64,000 nt of DNA from Paenisporosarcina sp. FSL H8-0542 (GTDB lineage: Bacteria > Bacillota > Bacilli > Bacillales_A > Planococcaceae): assembly GCF_038632915.1 (NCBI RefSeq), contig NZ_CP152050.1:2325001-2389000 (forward strand). The letters run 5' to 3'. Under the pieces are notes generated by a model. The model saw only the letters and a list, made by a program, of their open reading frames with translations. It was not told the DNA's origin and ran no database searches. The translations under genes and the position numbers were made by a program. Positions 51,968 to 54,898 of this stretch are shown one piece after another (the stretch's first letter is position 1; every line of letters begins with the position of its first letter).

Positions 51968-52747
51968 TTAAATAAGCTTTAAATATCTCATGGCATTTAC
52001 TAAACCATCTTCGTCAACATGGGTGGTAACATATTTAGCACGTTTCAACGCTTCTTCATGTCCATTCCCCATACAAACGCCAAAACCTACCGCCTCCAAC
52101 ATTTCGATATCATTCAGCCCGTCTCCAAAAGCAATCGTGTCTTCAACTGCGATTTGAAGTTTTTCACATAAAAAATATACAGCATTGGCTTTTGAAGCCC
52201 CATTTGGCAAAATATCAGTAGATACACGATGCCATCTGACGAATTTCAAAAGCGGGAAATTTTCTTTGTATGCCTTTTCTTCTTCTAAAGAGCAAAATAA
52301 AAGCGCTTGATAAATTTTTTGATTAAGATAAAAATCTTTTTCGAAAGCAGGATGAGGAAACTTCAGGGTACTGATGCTTTCTTCCACATGAGGATGATAT
52401 GTACTAGAGGCAATCATTTTTTCAGCATTCATATATACCATCGGATGATTTTTGATTTCCGCGTAGGCCGATACTGACTTGAGTAGTTCAAGATCAATTT
52501 GTGTTTTGGACACCACTTCACCTTTATAGACAATATATTGACCGTTAAAACATATGTACGAGTCAATCTCTAATTCTTTTAGAACATCCTGAATCATAAA
52601 AGGTGCTCGTCCAGTAGCGATAAAAACTTCATGCCCGTTTTTTCGAGCTTCGAATACTGCTTCTTTCGCTTTGATTGGTAACTTTTTATCGGAATTATAT
52701 AAGGTTCCGTCAATATCAAAAAACAATACTTTTCTCAAAACTTTCAT
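51968..52747 (-). CDS. ykrA: Cof-type HAD phosphatase (YkrA)
   Basis: A 259-residue HAD hydrolase with type IIB cap. Motif I FFDIDGTLYNS (about 9-19), motif II ATGR (about 41-44) and motif III GDGLNDIEML (about 209-218). It dephosphorylates small metabolites, probably sugar or cofactor phosphates. The start may be ATG 52747, or TTG 52738, which is better spaced from GAAAGG and gives MRKVLFFDIDG. Confidence 0.88.
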   Translation of the reverse strand: MKVLRKVLFFDIDGTLYNSDKKLPIKAKEAVFEARKNGHEVFIATGRAPFMIQDVLKELEIDSYICFNGQYIVYKGEVVSKTQIDLELLKSVSAYAEIKNHPMVYMNAEKMIASSTYHPHVEESISTLKFPHPAFEKDFYLNQKIYQALLFCSLEEEKAYKENFPLLKFVRWHRVSTDILPNGASKANAVYFLCEKLQIAVEDTIAFGDGLNDIEMLEAVGFGVCMGNGHEEALKRAKYVTTHVDEDGLVNAMRYLKLI

Positions 52748-52786
52748 CCTTTCTTTTGTCCTCCAGTCTACTAAAGACGGGAACCC

Positions 52787-52815
52787 TTTACAAAAGTTGC
52801 AATTTTCTGTATAAT
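52787..52815 (+). promoter_or_regulatory. Sigma-A promoter of the 23-residue peptide gene
   Basis: TTTACA and TATAAT with a 17-bp spacer (5 of 6 and 6 of 6). The expected transcript start is about 16 bases before the ATG, at the edge of the ribosome site. Confidence 0.8.
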
Positions 52816-52837
52816 GATGTACAAGGAGTGATTTGCC

Positions 52838-52909
52838 ATGTTAAAGCGTCTAAAAAAGAAATTATTGAGACGGTTGGGCGGCATACTCGGGAAAAAATCG
52901 ATCGCTTAA
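52838..52909 (+). CDS. Tiny cationic amphipathic peptide (23 residues)
   Basis: A 24-codon frame preceded by AAGGAG nine bases before the ATG and placed exactly between a good promoter and a terminator. The peptide begins MLKRLKKKLLRRLGGILG and ends KKSIA. It has nine Lys/Arg and no acidic residue, with hydrophobic residues at positions 2, 5, 9, 10, 13, 16 and 17, fitting an amphipathic helix followed by a glycine bend. No family is recognised. It could bind membranes, RNA or an acidic protein. It is upstream of rpoY-rnjA in the same direction but ends at its own terminator. Confidence 0.7.
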   Translation: MLKRLKKKLLRRLGGILGKKSIA

Positions 52910-52915
52910 TTTTTT

Positions 52916-52950
52916 GCCCTGCTATTTATAGTAGGGCTTTTCTTTATTTT
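52916..52950 (+). terminator. Terminator of the 23-residue peptide gene
   Basis: A 9-bp stem (GCCCTGCTA / TAGTAGGGC) with a four-base loop and T-rich tail, seven bases after the stop codon. Confidence 0.85.
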
Positions 52951-53015
52951 AAAAGGCGCTCGTGATAATATAAAGAGAATGTAATTATTTTGAACGTGAA
53001 AAAGGAGAGCAAAAC

Positions 53016-53225
53016 ATGATTTACAAAGTTTATTATCAAGAAAACGTGCTTGAAGTGCCAGTTCGCGAAAACACAAAAAGCCTTTATATCGAAGCATCCT
53101 CTGAACGTGAAGTTCGTTACGCTTTAAAGGATCGCAAGTATAATATCGAATTCGTTCAGCTACTAGAAGGTAATCATTTATCTTACGAACAAGCTAGCGA
53201 AAACTACAAAGTGGAGAAACTTTAA
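53016..53225 (+). CDS. rpoY: RNA polymerase epsilon subunit
   Basis: A 69-residue RpoY (YkzG, DUF1447), a small RNA-polymerase subunit of Bacillota. [18 protein letters not shown] and the [16 protein letters not shown] helix are typical. GGAG lies upstream. Five bases separate it from rnjA, the standard pairing. Confidence 0.95.
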
Positions 53226-53230
53226 TCCAC

Positions 53231-54898
53231 ATGAAATTTGTTAAGAATGATCAAACAGCGGTTTTCGCACTCGGCGGACTGGGCGAAATCGGTAAAAACA
53301 CTTATGGTGTTCAATTCCAAGATGAAATAATTTTAATTGATGCAGGTATTAAATTCCCTGAAGATGATTTACTCGGGATTGATTACGTTATTCCTGATTA
53401 CACGTACCTTGTGAAAAATGTAGACAAGATTAAAGGTCTATTTATTACACACGGTCACGAAGATCACATCGGTGGTATTCCCTATTTGCTGAAACAATTA
53501 AATATCCCTGTTTACGGAGGCAAACTTGCACTAGGTTTATTGCGAAATAAATTAGAAGAACATGGTTTATTGCGTACAACTAAAATGCATGTAATCGCTG
53601 AAGAAGACGTGATTAAATTCAGAAAAACTTCAGTGAGTTTCTTCCGTACAACGCACAGTATTCCGGATGCATACGGCATCGTAGTTAAAACACCACCCGG
53701 CAATGTTGTACATACAGGAGATTTTAAATTCGATTTCACACCCGTTGGTGAACCAGCTAACTTAACCAAAATGGCTGAAATTGGCCGAGACGGCGTGCTG
53801 TGTTTGCTTTCTGATAGTACAAATGCAGAAGTACCAAATTTCACAATGTCAGAGCGTAAAGTTGGCGAAAGCTTGTCGGAAATTTTCCGTAAAGTTGATG
53901 GTCGCATCATTTTCGCAACTTTTGCGTCAAACATTCATCGCTTACAACAAGTAACGGAAGCGGCTGTCCATCACGGACGTAAAATTGCTGTTTTTGGACG
54001 TAGTATGGATAACGCCATTACAATCGGACGTGAACTTGGCTATATTACTGCACCGAAAGAAACATTCGTCGATGCGCAATCATTGAATCGTTTGCCTGCG
54101 AATGAAGTTATGATTTTATGTACAGGTAGCCAAGGTGAACCGATGGCAGCGTTATCGAGAATTGCAAACGGTACACACCGACAAATTCAAATTCAACCAG
54201 CGGATACGGTAATTTTCTCTTCTTCACCGATTCCTGGTAATCGTACAAGCGTCAATCGAACAATCAACTTATTGTTCCGTGCAGGAGCAGATGTTATTCA
54301 TGGTTCATTGAATAACATTCACACTTCAGGTCATGGTTCTCAAGAAGAACAGAAATTGATGTTACGTTTAATGAAACCTAAATTCTTTATGCCGATTCAT
54401 GGTGAGTATCGTATGTTGAAAATGCATACGGAACTTGCTGTTGATTGTGACGTGGAGCCGGAAAATACTTTCATCATGGAAAACGGTGATGTATTGGCAC
54501 TTAGCCAAAACCAAGCAGCAGTCGCTGGTCGCATTCCTTCAGGTGATGTTTATATCGATGGTAGCGGCATTGGTGATATCGGTAATATTGTTTTACGCGA
54601 TCGCCGAATTCTTTCAGAAGAAGGCTTAGTCATTGTTGTTGTAAGCACAGACCAAGAACGTCAGAAGATTGTTTCTGGTCCAGATATTATTTCTCGTGGT
54701 TTTGTTTACATGCGTGAATCAGGTGCGATGATCAATGAAGCACAACATATGTTAAATCGCCATTTACAAAAAACAATTCAATCCAAGGCAACCCCTTGGT
54801 CAGAATTGAAAAATGAAATAACCGACGTATTAGGACCGTATTTATACGAAAAAACAAAACGTCGTCCAATGATTCTACCAATTATAATGGAAGTTTAA
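53231..54898 (+). CDS. rnjA: Ribonuclease J1
   Basis: A 555-residue beta-CASP metallo-beta-lactamase nuclease with 5' exonuclease and endonuclease activity, central to mRNA decay and rRNA maturation. Zinc motif THGHEDH at 73-79; beta-CASP motifs and the C-terminal domain are full length. Start ATG at 53231, partly within the end of rpoY's ribosome-site region. Confidence 0.97.

Follow-up and report, generated by a model that had tools for sequence, protein, structure and literature searches.

A 23-codon frame upstream of rpoY and rnjA very probably encodes a conserved cationic small protein of Bacillales

Upstream of the genes for the RNA polymerase epsilon subunit and RNase J1, the window (the whole stretch of 64,000 nucleotides analysed in this study) contains a short frame that raises two questions, namely whether it is a genuine protein gene and, if so, what its product may do. 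The sequence-only reading had described a complete miniature transcription unit for a cationic amphipathic peptide, consisting of a near-consensus promoter, an AAGGAG ribosome site, a short frame, and a terminator. All of these elements were found, from promoter to terminator, and the protein is conserved among relatives. The features of the locus are as follows.

51968-52747, minus strand: divergent HAD-family phosphatase gene (ykrA-like), from its open reading frame and tblastn
52787-52815, plus strand: putative sigma-A-type promoter, -35 TTTACA (52787-52792), 17-nt spacer, -10 TATAAT (52810-52815), read directly and kept in an alignment of 16 family loci
52823-52828, plus strand: Shine-Dalgarno sequence AAGGAG, 9 nt 5' of the ATG at 52838, read directly; AAGGAG or GGAG is kept in aligned relatives
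52838-52909, plus strand: small-protein gene of 23 codons plus TAA, peptide MLKRLKKKLLRRLGGILGKKSIA, from orthologues, a dN/dS of about 0.09, and frame controls
52841-52888, plus strand: predicted cationic amphipathic helix, residues 2-17 (hydrophobic 2, 5, 9, 13, 16, 17; basic 3, 4, 6, 7, 8, 11), from the column composition of 99 distinct peptides and the hydrophobic moment
52895-52906, plus strand: conserved C-terminal tail K20-x-[IVM]22-A23, from the column composition of the same 99 peptides
52916-52950, plus strand: intrinsic terminator, GCCCTGCTA-TTTA-TAGTAGGGC and then a T tract, read directly
52943-52971, plus strand: promoter-like element preceding the rpoY-rnjA operon, TTTATT-17-TAATAT plus an extended TGn; a TGnTAATATA-like element is conserved in 16 aligned loci
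53016-53225, plus strand: rpoY (ykzG), RNA polymerase epsilon subunit, from a PF07288 match in the window's genome and homology to the PDB epsilon subunit via the Bacillus orthologue
53231-54898, plus strand: rnjA, RNase J1, from its open reading frame and conserved gene order; the name is one that we take from the known B. subtilis locus

The promoter agrees with the consensus at 11 of 12 positions and is the top promoter-like match within 3 kb. Judging from the position of its -10 element, transcription is predicted to start at approximately 52821-52823, nearly on the Shine-Dalgarno sequence, so that a 5' leader of only some 15 nt is expected. The terminator stem (52916-52937) has 9 pairs, 5 of them G-C, and is followed by TTTTCTTTATTTT. 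Among 182 non-redundant loci, a ribosome-binding motif was found in 177 and a terminator-like structure in 151, and 82 were preceded by a promoter-like sequence agreeing at 10 or more of the 12 positions, compared with about 4 expected after shuffling. The net charge of the peptide, which had been put near +9, was counted as +9 (9 K/R, no D/E), and the supposition that annotation had passed over the gene holds as far as could be seen. A 96-codon frame overlapping the unit (52675-52965) was taken as a mechanical open reading frame.

The small gene is most likely an independent unit, since a putative promoter and a terminator belong to it alone and another conserved promoter-like element would serve rpoY. 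In the alignment of Planococcaceae, the promoter, Shine-Dalgarno sequence, and terminator are all kept and are followed, directly 5' of rpoY, by TGnTAATATA with a possible -35 element; in Bacillus, the promoter-like sequence AATATAATAGA occupies the matching place between the terminator and rpoY. In the window, the -35 element of the putative rpoY promoter overlaps the T tract of the terminator. The gap between the small frame and rpoY ranges from 19 to over 500 nt across loci. In the closest cases, which belong to family f41, the frame ends 19-31 nt 5' of rpoY and leaves no room for a terminator, so that the small gene is probably part of the rpoY operon there.

The substitution pattern of the frame was evaluated in 157 distinct coding sequences, which were chosen as open frames and encode 100 distinct peptides. 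The 1664 pairs with at least 75% identity gave a pS of 0.564, a pN of 0.091, and a dN/dS of approximately 0.09; these pairs are phylogenetically non-independent, and the figures therefore express the strength of selection rather than a formal test. The pN/pS ratio was 0.16 in the coding frame, against 1.5-2.1 in four of the five other frames; the fifth, the reverse frame with shared third positions, gave 0.26. None of the 157 sequences had a stop in the coding frame, whereas 88-145 of them did in each of the other five, although the zero is partly owing to the choice of open frames and the selection statistics weigh more. The length of exactly 23 codons was kept in 199 of 217 loci. As synonymous sites are near saturation, little room is left for an overlapping RNA constraint. 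Frame-disrupting changes or a lack of synonymous bias in close relatives had been named as signs against a gene, and on both points the data favour one. The locus thus very probably carries an autonomous, vertically inherited gene for a conserved 23-residue protein that is under strong purifying selection across Bacillales.

The extent of this conservation was examined at several taxonomic depths. A DNA search of 61 genomes recovered the locus from each of the 36 further genomes of the window's family, while 24 other families yielded no match; the peptide was readable in 29 of 30 same-family loci, each time with 23 codons, and the frame was lost in three of the same-family loci read. A profile built from 23 peptides matched 253 of the 261 genomes of the window's order, covering 18 of 19 genera; among the matches listed, all were full-length 23-mers, and the weakest best match had an E value of 2e-4. 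In the Bacillus family, profile matches were obtained in 75 of 80 genomes. When 399 genomes drawn evenly from the class were searched with the first profile, 27 matches fell outside the window's family, 26 of which were intact 23-codon frames directly 5' of rpoY and rnjA, most of them flanked by the divergent HAD gene. A second profile, together with inspection of the region 5' of rpoY, added more diverged members in further families, some of them C-terminally extended. A further weak match in the window's own genome (L148, G000:C1:2219196-2219243, minus strand, E 0.07) is out of frame within a nusA-like gene and was regarded as chance, and no paralogue was seen at the locus.

Named species were covered by fetching 80 Bacillales genomes with rpoY as the anchor. 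The frame stood immediately 5' of rpoY-rnjA in 78 of them (77 by pattern and one, L185 with MLKNLKKKLLKQWRDLLRKKSIA, by eye), and the carriers include Bacillus velezensis, B. pumilus, Geobacillus, Peribacillus, and Lysinibacillus. One genome, with a 4,215,606-bp chromosome, was taken to be B. subtilis 168; its RpoY and the B. subtilis PDB chain are identical, and we regard the strain identity as a strong inference. On the minus strand of this chromosome, positions 1525119-1525190 encode MLRKLRKKLRRQWNGMLRKKAIA. Its frame is preceded by AAAGGAGG and followed by a terminator-like hairpin. As the exact position in B. subtilis is known, the function of the gene is directly testable.

The gene is nevertheless absent from several lineages. 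Among the 399 class genomes, 175 have rpoY and about 76 of those have the peptide, which was not found 5' of rpoY in the staphylococci-like, Exiguobacterium-like, and Lactobacillales-like families. In Cytobacillus horneckiae (L160), the promoter and terminator persist but the frame survives only as a broken remnant, all within the 400 nt that precede rpoY. These losses in Staphylococcus-like and Exiguobacterium-like families, in C. horneckiae, and in part of one Planococcaceae genus suggest that the function is dispensable. On the tree of RpoY and RNase J1, at least 8 presence changes are needed for the peptide gene, and one old origin plus several losses would be compatible with it, as the remaining genes are syntenic. 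A small-genome genus of Planococcaceae (L032, L034) has neither the HAD gene nor the peptide gene, and def adjoins rpoY there as a consequence of the loss of both.

The searches for known relatives were negative throughout. Pfam and NCBIfam gave no match up to E = 1 for any of the 23 members, the profiles for SpoVM, phenol-soluble modulins, and curated antimicrobial peptides included; PHROGs gave nothing below E 0.19; in Rfam, the one match, to a Burkholderia RNA, scored 18.4 bits, below the cut-off of 49.5, and was put down to chance; and no PDB chain, RNA polymerase structures included, matched the profile. No paper on the gene was found in the open-access literature; the catalogues of predicted small proteins and the current RefSeq and SubtiWiki annotation lay outside this scope. 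Neither family models nor solved relatives nor the searchable papers cover a gene that is under strong selection in most Bacillales, the best-studied Gram-positive model among them, and the case illustrates that intact genes of 20-30 residues can stay hidden among well-known genes.

What the protein may do was approached through its composition. In all 99 distinct peptides, positions 2, 5, 9, 13, 16, and 17 are hydrophobic or aromatic, and positions 3, 4, 6, 8, 19, and 20 are nearly always basic. At most basic positions K and R interchange, while the end of the peptide is kept residue by residue: K20 in 98 of 99, I, M, or V at position 22 in 99 of 99, and A23 in 97 of 99. The net charge across members is +7 to +11. 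The mean hydrophobic moment was 0.64 on the Eisenberg scale (z approximately +2.3 relative to shuffles) and 0.66 on the Fauchere-Pliska scale; the peptide of the window itself has a moderate moment, with a z of 1.6. For lipid-binding helices, the usual threshold of the charge-moment discriminant is 1.3; the value obtained here was 2.9, although such scores cannot separate membrane binding from RNA binding. Because residues 2-17 combine a hydrophobic stripe with freely exchanging K and R, whereas conservation of the final K-x-[IVM]-A-COOH is residue-specific, the peptide is read as having two parts, a predicted generic cationic amphipathic helix and a specific tail.

Based on this composition, we tentatively favour, at somewhat below an even chance, a cytosolic cationic amphipathic helix that docks on an anionic surface, the membrane being the likeliest candidate, and carries a specific C-terminal tail. 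Docking on such a surface is suggested by the free K/R exchange together with the invariant hydrophobic stripe, and the inner membrane leaflet is a surface of this kind. The peptide would remain cytosolic as a free-standing amphipathic helix and lie against the cytoplasmic side of the anionic membrane, where the helix would supply generic electrostatic and hydrophobic docking. The tail, whose specificity suggests a protein that reads it, might serve as the specific handle, either as the binding site of a protein partner or as a ClpXP-type proteolysis signal that holds the level low. Because some groups, family f41 among them, have an extended or substituted tail, one universal tail function is disfavoured. 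The ClpX C-motif-2 signals of E. coli, such as RRKKAI of MuA and RAKKVA of YbaQ (PMC9775585), are similar in sequence, with basic residues followed by a small or aliphatic C-terminus (the peptide tails include RKKSIA and GKKTIA); however, the spacing in the peptide is one residue off and the motifs were described for E. coli proteins, so that the resemblance is a lead for a possible degron in Bacillus.

Among known Bacillales proteins, SpoVM, a 26-residue amphipathic peripheral membrane protein of Bacillus, is comparable to the predicted helix in being free-standing, very short, positively charged, and devoid of a signal peptide. The new peptide is, however, far more basic, has a sigma-A-like rather than a sporulation promoter, is kept in Planococcaceae, and lies at another locus, in addition to lacking the Pfam match.

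The neighbourhood of the gene points in another direction. The peptide could be an accessory factor of the adjacent RNA machinery, binding RNA polymerase, RNase J1, or ribosomal RNA so as to modulate transcription or RNA decay, a reading that we consider the main rival yet doubtful. The linkage to rpoY-rnjA is near-invariant over many families, even across 200-560 nt, no convincing copy of the peptide occurred in the rpoY-less genomes among the 399 of the class sample, the probable shared operon of family f41 would fit, and about half of the 23 residues are basic. Local gene order is conserved here anyway, however, so that the linkage may be inertia and by itself is no proof of interaction. 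Moreover, in most lineages the gene is equipped with a promoter and terminator not shared with rpoY, the families named above as lacking the peptide retain rpoY-rnjA, the six invariantly hydrophobic positions are unneeded for plain RNA binding, and the profile matched none of the RNA polymerase structures.

Two further comparisons can be drawn. SR1P, which lies beyond the pdh operon, and other B. subtilis small proteins on sRNA-sized transcripts likewise combine a tiny coding unit with its own promoter and terminator in a shared chromosomal neighbourhood, although SR1P differs in length, composition, and position and has no recognised sequence relation to the new peptide. SR1P is described as acting via a protein partner in RNA decay (PMC8152036). 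RpoY itself is likewise small, is the product of the adjoining co-oriented gene, and co-occurs in the peptide-bearing genomes; unlike the peptide, it is a folded subunit of 69 residues with solved structures. The two directions could also be joined, with the helix tying the RNA polymerase/RNase J neighbourhood to the membrane and anchoring or tuning RNA decay or transcription there, in an amount set by tail-dependent proteolysis. We consider this combination improbable; if true, an undescribed and near-universal small protein of Bacillales, present in B. subtilis too, would link the RNA machinery to the membrane.

Alternatively, translation of the short frame might decide whether the terminator forms or is read through, making the unit a leader peptide or attenuator of rpoY-rnjA. 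The short frame, the terminator, and the co-oriented housekeeping operon do fit within about 110 nt, but the conserved promoter-like element of rpoY after the terminator, in Planococcaceae and Bacillus alike, and the widely varying spacing lead us to reject attenuation as very unlikely. Furthermore, conservation of a helix face with free K/R exchange and near-saturated synonymous sites favours a protein over an RNA switch.

It had also been suggested that the peptide could be membrane-active like a modulin. As a secreted or self-acting toxin or antimicrobial peptide, whether modulin-like or a leaderless bacteriocin, it would resemble the phenol-soluble modulins and the synthetic LK-type antimicrobial peptides in forming a short, K/L-rich amphipathic helix, and the LK peptides also in the lack of a signal peptide. 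Unlike these, the new gene is chromosomal, inherited vertically, and present once in nearly every species; it occurs in ordinary soil bacteria and not only in pathogens, is under purifying and not diversifying selection, and has no adjoining immunity or exporter gene and no match to a curated family. This form of the suggestion is therefore not supported, and we consider it very improbable. A mobile toxin or phage gene was rejected on the absence of plasmid or phage copies in tblastn, a search that is insensitive with a 23-mer query. Finally, a small regulatory RNA with an incidental frame, which the expected transcript of about 120 nt, terminator included, would match in size, has next to no chance, and as the sole function it is refuted by the frame-specific selection (including the near-saturated synonymous sites and the missing stops) and by the lack of an Rfam family.

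The loci of C. horneckiae, L018, and L241 are natural knock-outs, in which the promoter and/or the terminator is kept and the frame is broken or deleted. Upstream of rpoY in family f41 (L121, L122, L123, L127, L129, L131), the orthologues carry C-terminal extensions that share a [VI]PTT motif, and those of other families end in LIEV or GLLNNEYMK.
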